From an uncultured Marinilabiliaceae bacterium (GTDB lineage Bacteria; Bacteroidota; Bacteroidia; Bacteroidales; Marinilabiliaceae): 16,084 nucleotides of DNA. The stretch lies in contig CAJONN010000017.1 in the NCBI GenBank assembly GCA_905235955.1, forward strand, positions 1 to 16,084, in the 5' to 3' direction. The translations under genes and the position numbers were made by a program. Below the pieces are notes generated by a model that made no database searches, was not told the origin of the DNA, and worked only from the letters and a program-made list of their open reading frames with translations. Positions 8,933 through 16,084 of this stretch are shown piece after piece; position 1 is the stretch's first letter; each line of letters begins with the position of its first letter.

Positions 8933-9466
8933 TTACAATTCGATGAGTCCTTCAGGTAGGTCAAAAAGTATGGTTTTTTGTTTGTCGTCGATGTTGGCAA
9001 TTAGTTCGTCGGCAATGGGTACTAATATTTCATCGTCGTTGTGGTTGATGACGAAGAGTGGGTTGGCACCTACCTGATTGTCGATATCGGTAATAATGCC
9101 AATGTAGCCAGCCTGTTTGTCGGTAGCGCTATAGCCTATCAGGAAGCCGGTAGAGATGTTGTTGGTAGCAATGTCGGCAATGTCGTCGGTCCATTCGCGT
9201 CGAATGTATACGTTGCAACCCGATAGGCGGCGAGCATCGTCGTGTGAGGCAACGAATTCAAATTTTACAAGCACTTCTTCGTTGCTTTTGATGCGCACCT
9301 CTTCTGCGTAGAATGGCACAAGTCCGCCATCGATTTCGAGTAGTAGAAATTCGTAGCAAAGGTCGTCGGCACAGAAGCCCGTATCGGCTCTTACCACAAC
9401 CTCACCGCCAACGCCATGTGGCTTGGCTATAAGTCCAACTTTTACACATTCTTCTTTTTCTGTCAT
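8933..9466 (-). CDS. rimM: Ribosome maturation factor RimM
   Basis: RimM binds the 30S subunit, through S19 in E. coli, and assists folding of the 16S rRNA head region. The 177-residue product shows the N-terminal RimM beta-barrel (KVGLIAKPHGVGGEVVV, about 9-25) and a C-terminal PRC-barrel with the usual LVPIADELIANID stretch (about 148-160). Length is typical. It is the first gene of the minus-strand group, with a promoter-like TATCTTTG box 26 bp upstream of its ATG. In many bacteria rimM neighbours trmD and rpsP; here it is followed by prfB instead. Start ATG 9466 gives the expected N terminus. Confidence 0.95.
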   Translation of the reverse strand: MTEKEECVKVGLIAKPHGVGGEVVVRADTGFCADDLCYEFLLLEIDGGLVPFYAEEVRIKSNEEVLVKFEFVASHDDARRLSGCNVYIRREWTDDIADIATNNISTGFLIGYSATDKQAGYIGIITDIDNQVGANPLFVINHNDDEILVPIADELIANIDDKQKTILFDLPEGLIEL

Positions 9467-9491
9467 CAGCTAATGAGATAAAAATGCAGTG

Positions 9492-9499
9492 CAAAGATA
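9492..9499 (-). promoter_or_regulatory. Candidate promoter -7 box of the rimM-led operon
   Basis: The minus strand reads TATCTTTG, a full match to the Bacteroides -7 consensus TAnnTTTG, 25 bp before the rimM ATG. That leaves a short leader of about 15-20 nt. No good TTG -33 element is visible. The flanking bases extend the match with the plus-strand promoter to TATCTTTGCA. Confidence 0.6.
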
Positions 9500-9575
9500 A
9501 GGATTATGATGGTTTTTTTGCATAGAAGTTGTATGGTGTCGTTGTAAAAAACTTTCGTATTCTCTGTGTATTCAT

Positions 9576-9619
9576 ACTTGTGAAAGTTGAGAAAATAATC
9601 TTTCTTGAGTTTCGCAAGT
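9576..9619. repeat. Imperfect hairpin formed by two copies of the outer repeat
   Basis: Arms 9576-9594 (begins ACTTGTGAAAG) and 9601-9619 (ends TTTCGCAAGT) pair at 15 of 19 positions around a six-base loop ATAATC. It marks the left border of the palindromic element and suggests the outer repeat itself exists as inverted pairs. Confidence 0.7.
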
Positions 9620-9648
9620 AAAGTAGCTCCGAAGGAGCGAAAGAATAC

Positions 9649-9681
9649 AGGCAGTGGTGTAGCGAAGCGAAACCACTGCTA
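9649..9681. repeat. 33-base inverted repeat, left copy
   Basis: This unit is an exact inverted copy of 9786-9818. Each copy is also a hairpin by itself: GCAGTGGT at 9651-9658 pairs with ACCACTGC at 9672-9679 around a 13-base loop containing AGCGAAGCGA. The two copies can therefore either fold separately or pair with each other. Confidence 0.93.
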
Positions 9682-9703
9682 ATTATGCGCCCTCCACAAT
9701 ATT

Positions 9704-9722
9704 AGCCCCGAAGGGGCGAAAG
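9704..9722. repeat. Inner GAAGGGG repeat, left copy
   Basis: The sequence AGCCCCGAAGGGGCGAAAG contains a 5-bp stem (GCCCC/GGGGC) with a GAA loop. It is mirrored at 9747-9765 with 18 of 19 positions matching; the single difference still allows a G-U pair in RNA. Confidence 0.9.
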
Positions 9723-9746
9723 AACAATAACTCACAATTGCTGTCA

Positions 9747-9765
9747 CTTTCGCCCCTTCAGGGCT
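9747..9765. repeat. Inner GAAGGGG repeat, right (inverted) copy
   Basis: Inverted partner of 9704-9722, reading CTTTCGCCCCTTCAGGGCT on the plus strand. Only about 24 bases separate the two copies, and they form the core of the large palindrome. Confidence 0.9.
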
Positions 9766-9785
9766 CTTGTCCGTTGGTTGATTTG

Positions 9786-9818
9786 TAGCAGTGGTTTCGC
9801 TTCGCTACACCACTGCCT
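9786..9818. repeat. 33-base inverted repeat, right copy
   Basis: Exact reverse complement of 9649-9681, including both self-complementary ends (GCAGTGGT at 9788-9795 and ACCACTGC at 9809-9816). A perfect match over 33 bases in non-coding DNA suggests recent origin, gene conversion or selection on the structure. Confidence 0.93.
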
Positions 9819-9860
9819 ATGGTCTATCGCCCTTTCAGGGCTTATTTTCTGTATATTTTC

Positions 9861-9876
9861 ACTTGCGAAACTTAAG
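9861..9876. repeat. Right outer repeat of the palindromic element
   Basis: ACTTGCGAAACTTAAG is the inverted counterpart of the left outer repeat (9604-9619). Its reverse complement matches 15961-15976 at 15 of 16 positions, so the motif is dispersed rather than unique to this element. Confidence 0.8.
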
Positions 9877-9909
9877 GTATGCGAATTATGGTAGTTACAA
9901 CATTATCTA

Positions 9910-9917
9910 TATCTTTG
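9910..9917 (+). promoter_or_regulatory. Candidate promoter -7 box of the plus-strand operon
   Basis: TATCTTTG matches the Bacteroides -7 consensus TAnnTTTG and lies 28 bp before the ATG of the small membrane protein at 9946. A TTA at 9886-9888 is the best, imperfect, -33 candidate. The extended 10-mer TATCTTTGCA is identical to that of the rimM promoter on the other strand. Confidence 0.6.
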
Positions 9918-9945
9918 CATATTAAAACAGAGATTTCAGACAATT

Positions 9946-10158
9946 ATGATAAAGATATTTCTTGCCATATTGCCTCTGTTGGCTATAGCAATGTTGTTTT
10001 TGGCGGTGCGCATTTTGCTCAAAAAGGGTGGCACATTTCATTCGCAACACGTTGGTCAGAGCAAGGCTATGCGCCAGCGAGGTATACATTGTGTGCAGTC
10101 GTTAGACCGATTGGAACATGCCTCAAAGCTCAATGTCAATGAAGATATGCTCCATTAA
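9946..10158 (+). CDS. Small conserved membrane-anchored protein of unknown function
   Basis: The 70-residue product has one hydrophobic N-terminal segment (about 3-24, leader-like or a membrane anchor) followed by RILLKKGGTFHSQHVGQSKAM and RQRGIHCVQSLDRLEH. I recall small Bacteroidetes proteins with the same layout: a membrane segment, a KK-G-F---HV--(N/S)KA(L/M)---GI-C--S-DR core and a single cysteine, here C49. No function is known to me. The gene follows a good promoter-like box by 28 bp and precedes the GT-C gene by 21 bp, so it is probably the first gene of the operon. The overlapping frame at 9879-10142 starts upstream of the -7 box and lacks these features. The tail should face the cytoplasm under the positive-inside rule, because the basic residues follow the helix. 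Confidence 0.75.
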   Translation: MIKIFLAILPLLAIAMLFLAVRILLKKGGTFHSQHVGQSKAMRQRGIHCVQSLDRLEHASKLNVNEDMLH

Positions 10159-10179: not shown

Positions 10180-11859
10180 ATGAAAGATAAAAACGCTCAA
10201 GTTGGCTCTGCTTCCAACTTTTTTGCCTCTCATGCCAACGTTATAGCTATAGCGCTTACAATTCTGACATTTTTTGTAGGGTTGCTGCTTTTCAATGTGC
10301 GTGTTGATGAAGGTGGCGACGATAGTACATACATCACTCGTGCCATCGACTTGGTTGGTAGCGGCACTTATCCTACTTATCAGGGTCCGCTCTATCCGAT
10401 GTTTTTGGCCATTTTTGTGGCAATATTTGGTGCCAACGTAGTTTTACTCAAGTTTACATCGCTACTGCTCGTTGCAGCTTCGCAATATATATTCTATCGT
10501 ATGCTTAGAGGTAGAGTGGGCGATAGGGCTATATTTGCCGTTATGGGGCTTATGAGCATCAACTCTATTGTGCTCTTCTTTGGCAGTATGACCTATTCTG
10601 AGGCACTTTTCACTGTGGTGCAATATCTCTTTTTTGCCACAATATTGCGTTGTGCATCGATAGTTGCAACCAACAAAAAAAGTGAATTGCTAAGTACTAT
10701 TCCGCCAGCAGTACTTGTTGTTTTGGCATATCTCATTCGCACTGTTGGCTTCGGTCTTGGCATAGTGGGCGTTGTTTTTCTCTGCATACAGCGCAAATAT
10801 TTGCGTGCTGCAATGTTTGTAGGAGCTATGGCACTTACACTTATGCTCTGGATGGGTATACGCTATGCCGTTTGGGGCGAAGTGAAGTCAGACAATAGGC
10901 AAATAGAGTCGCTAATGCAAGTGCACCCTTATCAAGCAGAAGATGGGCAAGAGACAATAGCCGGATATGCAGGCAGAGTGGTTGACAATTCGAACCTCTA
11001 CATCTCAAAGCATCTGATGCGCATACTCGGACTACACAAAGCCGACGACCGCAGCACAAGTGGCGTTGTAACCCTGCTATTCTATTTGCTTTTTGGCTAT
11101 GGCGCTTATAGGGTATGGCGCAGAGGCAATGTGGCACTGCAACTAATGGTAGTGTCGTCGGTTGTAATGCTGGGCATCACATTTGTAGTGTTGCAAGCCT
11201 TGTGGGACCAAGTGAGGCTTGTGGTGCCATACGTAGCGCCAGCATTGCTCATAGTGCTTTTTGCTCTGATGGAGATATTGCGCATAGTGTTGAAAAGCAA
11301 AGCAGAACTTGTAATGAGCTGTTTGGTAGGTGTTTGCGGAATGTTTGTTCTTTCGCAAACAATATCCAAAATAGATATGCCAACTCTCCGGCGAAACTTA
11401 AAAGGCGATATGCTCTATGGTTATACGCCCGACTGGTACAACTATCTGAGCGTTTGCAAAGAGGTTTATAACCAATTGCCACAAGATGCATACGTAGCTT
11501 GTCGCAAGCCCAATATGGCACGCATATATTCTGGTGGACACAAATTTTTTGGCATATACAACTTCTACACCGAAGATGCTGACGAACTTGTTGACAACCT
11601 AAAAGAACACAACGTTACGCACATCATAGTAGCAAGTTTGCGCCGCGATCCGCTCATACCCAACGATCAGGTTATCAATACCATACATCGCTACATGAAG
11701 TTTGTTATGGATAAATATCCAAACGCCTTTGAACTTTGCGGACAATGTGGAAGCGAAGGCAACGAACCAACCTATCTGTTTGCCGTCAGATATGACTACA
11801 TAGAGGCAATGCGAGCACATTTGGCAACATCTGCCAACAAGGAGGATAGCTATGAATAA
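10180..11859 (+). CDS. GT-C family membrane glycosyltransferase (ArnT/PMT/GT39-like)
   Basis: The 559-residue integral membrane protein has about ten hydrophobic segments between residues 20 and 395 and a soluble C-terminal part (about 400-559), probably periplasmic. The first extracytoplasmic loop after helix 1 contains VDEGGDDSTYITRA (42-55), with acidic residues D43, E44, D47 and D48, the hallmark position of the GT-C catalytic acids. This is followed by YPTYQGPLYPMFLA, typical of GT39-like enzymes. Such enzymes take a sugar from a polyprenyl-phosphate carrier and transfer it to lipid A, protein or another acceptor; the acceptor cannot be read from sequence. The next gene overlaps it by 8 bp and encodes a DPM1-like GT2 domain, a fitting source of the activated sugar. 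Start ATG 10180 is 21 bp after the small membrane protein gene. Confidence 0.85.
   Translation: MKDKNAQVGSASNFFASHANVIAIALTILTFFVGLLLFNVRVDEGGDDSTYITRAIDLVGSGTYPTYQGPLYPMFLAIFVAIFGANVVLLKFTSLLLVAASQYIFYRMLRGRVGDRAIFAVMGLMSINSIVLFFGSMTYSEALFTVVQYLFFATILRCASIVATNKKSELLSTIPPAVLVVLAYLIRTVGFGLGIVGVVFLCIQRKYLRAAMFVGAMALTLMLWMGIRYAVWGEVKSDNRQIESLMQVHPYQAEDGQETIAGYAGRVVDNSNLYISKHLMRILGLHKADDRSTSGVVTLLFYLLFGYGAYRVWRRGNVALQLMVVSSVVMLGITFVVLQALWDQVRLVVPYVAPALLIVLFALMEILRIVLKSKAELVMSCLVGVCGMFVLSQTISKIDMPTLRRNLKGDMLYGYTPDWYNYLSVCKEVYNQLPQDAYVACRKPNMARIYSGGHKFFGIYNFYTEDADELVDNLKEHNVTHIIVASLRRDPLIPNDQVINTIHRYMKFVMDKYPNAFELCGQCGSEGNEPTYLFAVRYDYIEAMRAHLATSANKEDSYE
11839..11845 (+). promoter_or_regulatory. Strong Shine-Dalgarno sequence before the methyltransferase-GT2 gene
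   Basis: AAGGAGG lies 6 bases before ATG 11852, inside the last codons of the GT-C gene. It supports ATG 11852 as the start. Most other starts in the window have A-rich leaders with no such motif, as expected for Bacteroidetes. The same bases encode Lys-Glu in the upstream gene, so coincidence is possible. Confidence 0.55.
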
Positions 11860-15960: not shown

Positions 15961-15976
15961 CTCAAGTTTCGCAAGT
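15961..15976. repeat. Dispersed copy of the palindrome's outer repeat
   Basis: CTCAAGTTTCGCAAGT matches the reverse complement of 9861-9876 at 15 of 16 positions and shares the 13-base core AGTTTCGCAAGTA with 9608-9620. It lies about 6 kb from the main element and is not followed by the inner repeats. Confidence 0.75.
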
Positions 15977-16024
15977 AGAAATATTCTACAAACAAGTCCC
16001 CAATATATGACCTTCCCATTAATT

Positions 16025-16054
16025 TTACTTTTTCTGTGCCGACAGAAAAAGTAA
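16025..16054. repeat. 13-bp perfect hairpin
   Basis: TTACTTTTTCTGT (16025-16037) pairs perfectly with ACAGAAAAAGTAA (16042-16054) around a GCCG loop. Neither side has a T tract in the position needed for a canonical intrinsic terminator, although the stem could still help end the plus-strand transcript. It may be a dispersed palindromic repeat. Confidence 0.8.
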
Positions 16055-16084
16055 CAAAAAGAACTCGTCGCTGTTGCCACTCCG

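Follow-up and report, generated by a model that had tools for sequence, protein, structure and literature searches.

The ISPepr1 subgroup of the IS4 family is described as comprising insertion sequences (IS) of typically 1500-1600 bp, with ends of the form YT-AA-YTT---A and AT-rich direct repeats of 7-8 bp, as far as the account in PMC2266710 goes. In Porphyromonas gingivalis, the MITEs BrickBuilt and MITE239/464/700 carry terminal inverted repeats (TIRs) matching those of IS and some contain internal repeats, according to the portion of PMC4596501 cited here. REP sequences are small hairpins in high copy, and the tetranucleotide GTAG is given in PMC3733652 as the tag of GTAG-type REPs.

Analysis of a stretch of 16,084 nucleotides from an uncultured Marinilabiliaceae bacterium (hereafter the window), which is the entire contig C17 of a draft genome (G000; 2,175,419 bases, 271 contigs, 81% complete), indicated that positions 9604-9876 are very probably one copy of a high-copy MITE family, on whose TIRs an ISPepr1-type DDE transposase of the IS4 family would act in trans. 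This reading is supported by a shared TIR, a similar target preference, the copy number, the absence of the element from 14 congeners and its lack of coding capacity. The element is of a known kind; its copy number and its modular design built of hairpins are unusual.

Architecture and position of the element

Self-comparison, blastn against other copies and folding indicated that the element is a quasi-palindrome of 273 bp in which 16-bp TIRs enclose two mirrored arms of three hairpins each (B, C and D). The TIR pattern scan and the comparison of copies placed the left TIR, A (CTTGAGTTTCGCAAGT), at 9604-9619 on the plus strand, with one mismatch to CTYAAGTTTCGCAAGT, and the pattern scan placed the right TIR, A', an exact match to CTYAAGTTTCGCAAGT, at 9861-9876 on the minus strand. 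The left arm comprises, on the plus strand, hairpin B (9624-9645, with a 5-bp stem and a GAA triloop), hairpin C (9651-9679) and hairpin D (AGCCCCGAAGGGGCGAAAG, 9704-9722). A central spacer at 9723-9746, defined by the inverted pairs, separates it from the right arm, which carries D' (9747-9765), C' (9788-9816) and B' (9824-9842) on the minus strand. Inverted pairs and fold defined B, D, B' and D', with the arm alignment as further support for the first three; C and C' were defined by the fold and by diagnostic columns.

Three inverted pairs were found, 9604-9622/9858-9876 (89% identity), 9617-9681/9786-9850 (83%) and 9704-9722/9747-9765 (95%), and the order A-B-C-D-D'-C'-B'-A' given in a preliminary description of this DNA is thus correct. 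The centre near 9734 named there applies to B, C and D but not to the outermost pair A/A', whose axis is shifted to 9740 because the right arm contains a longer linker. Likewise, of the extent 9576-9876 the right border was retained, but comparison with other copies moved the left border to 9604.

The predicted fold of the whole element had an MFE of -84.8 kcal/mol versus -31.4 +/- 3.6 in 200 shuffles (z -14.8), in agreement with the very long hairpin that had been proposed, and C and C' pair unbroken over the 33 bases for which they had been called perfect. Each of the six B, C and D units also folds alone, as anticipated (z -2.5 to -4.3), and A tested alone forms no hairpin of its own (z -0.94). 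A triloop caps the predicted stems of B, B', C, C' and D, and its sequence in the inward direction from the TIR is GAA; for D' the prediction gives a shorter stem with a loop of 5 nt. The ORF list of the window holds no ORF of at least 70 aa inside the 273-bp element, consistent with the earlier view that no gene lies within it, and an Rfam scan of the window returned zero families at the gathering threshold.

On one side of the element lies rimM (8933-9466, minus strand) and on the other a divergent set of plus-strand genes, the first of which is a short ORF at 9946. For the 559-aa protein encoded at 10180-11859, Pfam gave no match at E 0.001, and the next gene encodes a methyltransferase/glycosyltransferase fusion. 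TATCTTTGCA occurs in each outer flank, on the minus strand at 9490-9499 and on the plus strand at 9910-9919 (inverted pair TGCAAAGATA / TATCTTTGCA). This sequence resembles the Bacteroidota -7 promoter element, so that neither transcript would include the element, which would lie upstream of two divergent putative promoters. Another copy of the family starts with an exact TIR at 15961-15976, and its left end (15961-16084, plus strand) is cut by the contig end.

rimM is present in 13 of 14 congeners, and the divergent genes of the window were found in none of the 13 rimM flanks available. Where rimM is most similar, in three congeners (L211-L213), its neighbour is another protein, encoded by frames of 357-396 codons on the same strand as rimM, so that gene order changes at the window.

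Copy number, presumed parent insertion sequence and transposase

Using 9596-9880 as query, blastn gave 105 matches in the genome of origin, eight of them nearly full-length, the window copy included; the others were partial or rearranged, or arose because these copies resemble themselves on the reverse strand. In 60 relatives, including 14 congeners, no match was obtained at E 1e-5. The idea of a mobile multi-copy repeat was therefore upheld: the element is not single-copy, and the further copies map its borders to 9604-9876. With up to two mismatches, CTYAAGTTTCGCAAGT was found at 391 ends in the own genome (197 + 194), about one end per 5.6 kb over 2.18 Mb, versus 2 + 1 for a control pattern; with up to one mismatch the count was 323 (163 + 160), versus 0 for the control. 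At the latter stringency it occurred at most once per genome in 70 other genomes of the same family and was present in 44 of 393 genomes of the order, the own genome included, with no more than nine occurrences per genome elsewhere. An extended-TIR pattern identified four MAGs, RGIG6315, RGIG1614, UBA1749 and SI.B1, each with 5 to 14 TIRs. Plasmid sequences searched with 8933-10158 and viral contigs scanned for CTYAAGTTTCGCAAGTRRAA gave zero matches, and a published description of the TIR family was not found among the literature matches listed, including those for two 11-base TIR words.

Copies of the family are alike in their TIRs and unlike inside, having the A-B-C-D/D'-C'-B'-A' layout, another long core or a total of 83-200 bp, and many are heavily truncated and varied. 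A second interior type, with inverted repeats of its own and AGCGAAGCG-like hairpins, was observed in L043 (115-503, 389 bp) and L070 (329-676, 348 bp), and in part in L058 and L061 of the own genome. TIR-bounded elements were also observed in other MAGs, at 4032-4406 of L087 (375 bp) and at 6614-6924 of L088 (311 bp). By eye, these two are flanked by target duplications matching at 7/8 and 8/8 positions, respectively, which suggests that other genomes have MITEs of their own with the same ends and different interiors.

A complete IS of 1596 bp with a 16/16 TIR at both ends (third base left free) was found in genome G147, and its transposase ORF scored 397 bits for NF049925 (IS4 family transposase; cut-off 250 bits). 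At E 1e-30, NF049925 matched 29 of the 393 order genomes. The locus set comprised 31 loci, of which 30 came from this search, some from the same genome, and one (L171) from a genome in which the TIR had been detected beforehand. A TIR of at least 13/16 lay within approximately 400 bases in the expected orientation at 23 of the 31 loci and in the control orientation at none of the 31, and shuffled whole loci reached 13/16 in 8 of 200; the remaining eight loci had no TIR at this threshold, the flanks of some being cut by contig ends. The ten loci with both ends gave IS sizes of 1575-1699 bp, six at 1575-1596 bp and four at 1624-1699 bp. Perfect 7-bp duplications (TTATATC, TTAATAA, TTATCTA, TAATTAA and TTAATTA) were read by eye at all five IS loci with both ends and flanks readable. 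The YREK motif (Y-2-R-3-E-6-K) was present in all 16 transposases inspected from the 31 loci, and CTYAAGTTTCGCAAGT agrees with every conserved position of the ISPepr1 ends.

RGIG1614 (G096) has four contig ends with the exact 16-mer. Two of these adjoin an ORF start (MDKNREIISE) and the other two an ORF end weakly similar to the NF049925 C-terminus (38% over 26 aa; E 1e-4, obtained in a very small search). The contig ends are likely to be the two ends of one IS; a search of this genome with the G147 transposase gave zero matches. In G095, which has 14 TIRs, no NF049925-like match was found with the G147 protein as query. Inverted repeats around the presumed transposase promoter were also seen in two IS leaders, GGCATTGGG/CCCAATGCC at approximately 285-380 of L150 and TGGCTAAA/TTTAGCCA at 4410-4490 of L085.

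Among 40 genomes, the G147 transposase as query matched G147 and four others; it gave no match in the own genome at E 0.01. The single NF049925 match in the own genome, which contains one stop, lies at the end of contig C271; its score of 28.7 bits (E 7e-7) is below the cut-off, and below-cut-off matches were also obtained in 6 of 14 control genomes. In tblastn searches of 16 relatives against that locus alone, identity reached at most 49% over 45 aa (E 4e-10), and no TIR with up to four mismatches was located beside the stretch, which we read as a putative, internally deleted and weak transposase relic. The congener G014 holds a broken transposase copy with a TIR-like end (3 mismatches). An intact IS4-type transposase was not found in the own assembly; a draft of this kind would probably lose an IS of 1.5 kb present in several copies, and this absence is therefore weak evidence. 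The element is presumably mobilised in trans; the assembled genome contains no more than the weak relic.

The preliminary description had instead offered a REP-associated Y1/RAYT transposase as a possible agent. The small high-copy hairpins in mirrored order, and the GTAG that precedes left B, would agree with a REP/BIME-type array mobilised by such a Y1 tyrosine transposase (RAYT); in the window copy, however, GTAG stands before the left-arm B alone, and the other units show inward TAAG, TTAG and AGAG. The Y1 transposase profile PF01797 gave 0 matches in the own 81%-complete genome but matched 5 of 14 control genomes, and the ends of the element are those of a DDE transposase family. The REP/RAYT origin was rejected on the PF01797 search of the own genome, and we regard it as extremely improbable.

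The preferred reading is that of a MITE on which a DDE transposase of the ISPepr1 subgroup would recognise the 16-bp TIRs in trans, moving the gene-less element by cut-and-paste into AT-rich targets and producing duplications of about 7-8 bp.

Target sites and changes in the arms

Analysis of 156 distinct TIR flanks of the own genome revealed A at -1 in 94 (p 3e-13), T at -3 in 101 (p 3e-12), A at -5 in 90 (p 3e-11) and T at -7 in 79 (p 5e-4); T at -8 was not in excess over background (p 0.08). The target preference of the family is TNANTNA, to which three of the five IS duplications conform fully, one at 3/4 positions and one at 2/4. Counting against the MITE reading, only three of the 27 copies with both ends and flanks assembled show a flanking duplication of 7 or 8 bp that matches at 85% or more (0.39 expected by shuffling, p 0.0035). 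Copy L032 has a 9-bp flanking duplication, and the window copy has no target duplication. The scarcity of duplications may be due to loss by recombination between copies, to mis-joined contigs or to age.

As a missing duplication might be found at another copy, complementary pairs of flanks between copies were counted on 147 of the 156 flanks, the nine with a nested TIR being dropped. Complementary 8-mer pairs numbered 16 versus 4.2 in column shuffles (maximum 11 in 300 shuffles), four of them being left once low-complexity flanks were removed, and 7-mer pairs were not in excess (17 vs 15.7).

Of the 44 arm matches found, 40 were aligned; three duplicates of one contig stretch and one weak match were dropped. 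Alignment of left and right arms revealed 46 diagnostic columns, which recur in independent copies. These columns bear on the proposal that the element is an assembly artefact, a fold-back chimera from sequencing or from metagenome assembly. In favour of an artefact, the draft is in 271 contigs, and a hand count of exact matches in contigs C1-C102 gave 36 that carry a right-end TIR in the first 260 bases. A fold-back product would not, however, be expected to show 46 diagnostic columns recurring in independent copies, and the target preference recurs over 156 flanks; we therefore give an artefact hardly any credence, although mis-joined flanks at some copies are possible. Since so many contigs start near a right-end TIR, the assembly was often broken at family copies, and the TIR family explains many of the breaks in the draft genome.

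The left arm of the window copy is left-type at 40 of 41 diagnostic columns outside C, the exception lying in the TIR, and right-type at all five inside C, the type also found in C'. Compared with L002, the closest copy, five of the seven differences of the shared stretch fall in C, and the full converted-C pattern was present in none of the other 24 left arms. With the left C right-type and the remaining left arm left-type, the perfect 33-base match reads as a short local conversion of the left C unit in the window copy. The perfect palindrome, which had been described as retained, is so in the window copy, but L002 has the usual left C, and the perfection is therefore a property of the window copy. 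The converted C could equally have arisen by template switching inside the palindrome or by conversion from another copy.

A scan of hairpins yielded 83, of which 47 were canonical, 10 off-diagonal and 26 unclassified. In six of the 10 off-diagonal hairpins the outer flank of B' adjoins the D' inner flank, the product that deletion between these direct repeats would give, and in L243, also off-diagonal, the outer flank of left B is joined to the inner flank of right D. The other three, L007, L016 (plus strand) and L035, were judged to be misclassifications or cut flanks.

Pairing in the B, C and D stems was kept in 95.1% of cells. Cells with both sides changed numbered 42 versus 18.5 in shuffles, and the covariation score was 0.172 versus 0.111, values that 0 of 500 shuffles reached in either case. 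Such values, together with the position of the window copy between two sites that read as divergent promoter-like sequences, could point to a domesticated structural or regulatory element, retained because its hairpins are useful to the host, acting for instance as terminators, mRNA stabilisers or nucleoid sites. Yet shuffles give similar numbers of pairs that changed on both sides (5 observed vs 3.5) and of further pair types (18 vs 17), and a large share of the covariation distinguishes left-type from right-type arms and may thus reflect few events. Template switching alone can yield compensatory changes, as described in the part of PMC8794818 cited, and the copies are strongly truncated and diverse. 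A domesticated element is accordingly considered improbable.

In the MITE reading, the interior between the ends is a pair of mirrored arms that have diverged, each built of hairpins B, C and D, and the similarity of the hairpin units would drive local change. Such change would comprise deletions between adjacent units and the passage of a unit to the opposite arm, as we infer for C of the window copy, most simply by template switching or ectopic conversion. A more speculative extension, which we think unlikely, is that single hairpin units, and not entire elements, are the unit of change, being deleted between neighbours and copied by template switching among arms and among copies, that this local copying keeps the long quasi-palindrome alive in a bacterial chromosome and that some 400 ends may have reshuffled flanks and gene order. 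If true, recombination among nearly 400 ends would explain why target duplications are scarce; reshuffling of flanks is, like template switching and mobilisation in trans, something that we infer.

Comparison with described elements

The family represents a very dense set of TIRs tied to a definite IS subgroup, and its many diverged two-arm copies document, in nature, how bacterial hairpins and palindromes are altered, deleted and converted. As in the part of the REP/BIME literature cited (PMC3733652), small hairpins occur in high copy and are partly arranged head-to-head. In contrast to REP/BIME with RAYT as described there, no Y1 transposase was found in the own genome, GTAG is inconsistent and the bounds are TIRs of a DDE-type IS. 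The conversion of C resembles the quasipalindrome correction by template switching reported in the cited parts of PMC7202029 and PMC8794818, in which an imperfect inverted repeat is made perfect over a short tract; unlike those studies, the window case is deduced from one natural copy.

Agreement with the published features of ISPepr1-type IS4 elements, as far as they are given in the source cited above, extends to the ends, which fit YT-AA-YTT---A, and in the related IS to YREK and to AT-rich duplications, of 7 bp here and 7-8 bp as published. Four of the ten related IS exceed the published 1500-1600 bp, and the window element, unlike an ISPepr1-type IS, is 273 bp long, has no transposase gene and contains unrelated hairpin arms. 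With the P. gingivalis MITEs, as they are presented in the portion of PMC4596501 cited, the family shares irregularity of target duplications, which in BrickBuilt are irregular or missing. Those MITEs have IS5-type TIRs and about 10-20 copies each, whereas the window family has IS4/ISPepr1-type TIRs and 391 ends with up to two mismatches; and where two of the P. gingivalis types contain tandem repeats of 23 nt or 41 nt, the window family is built of mirrored hairpin arms.
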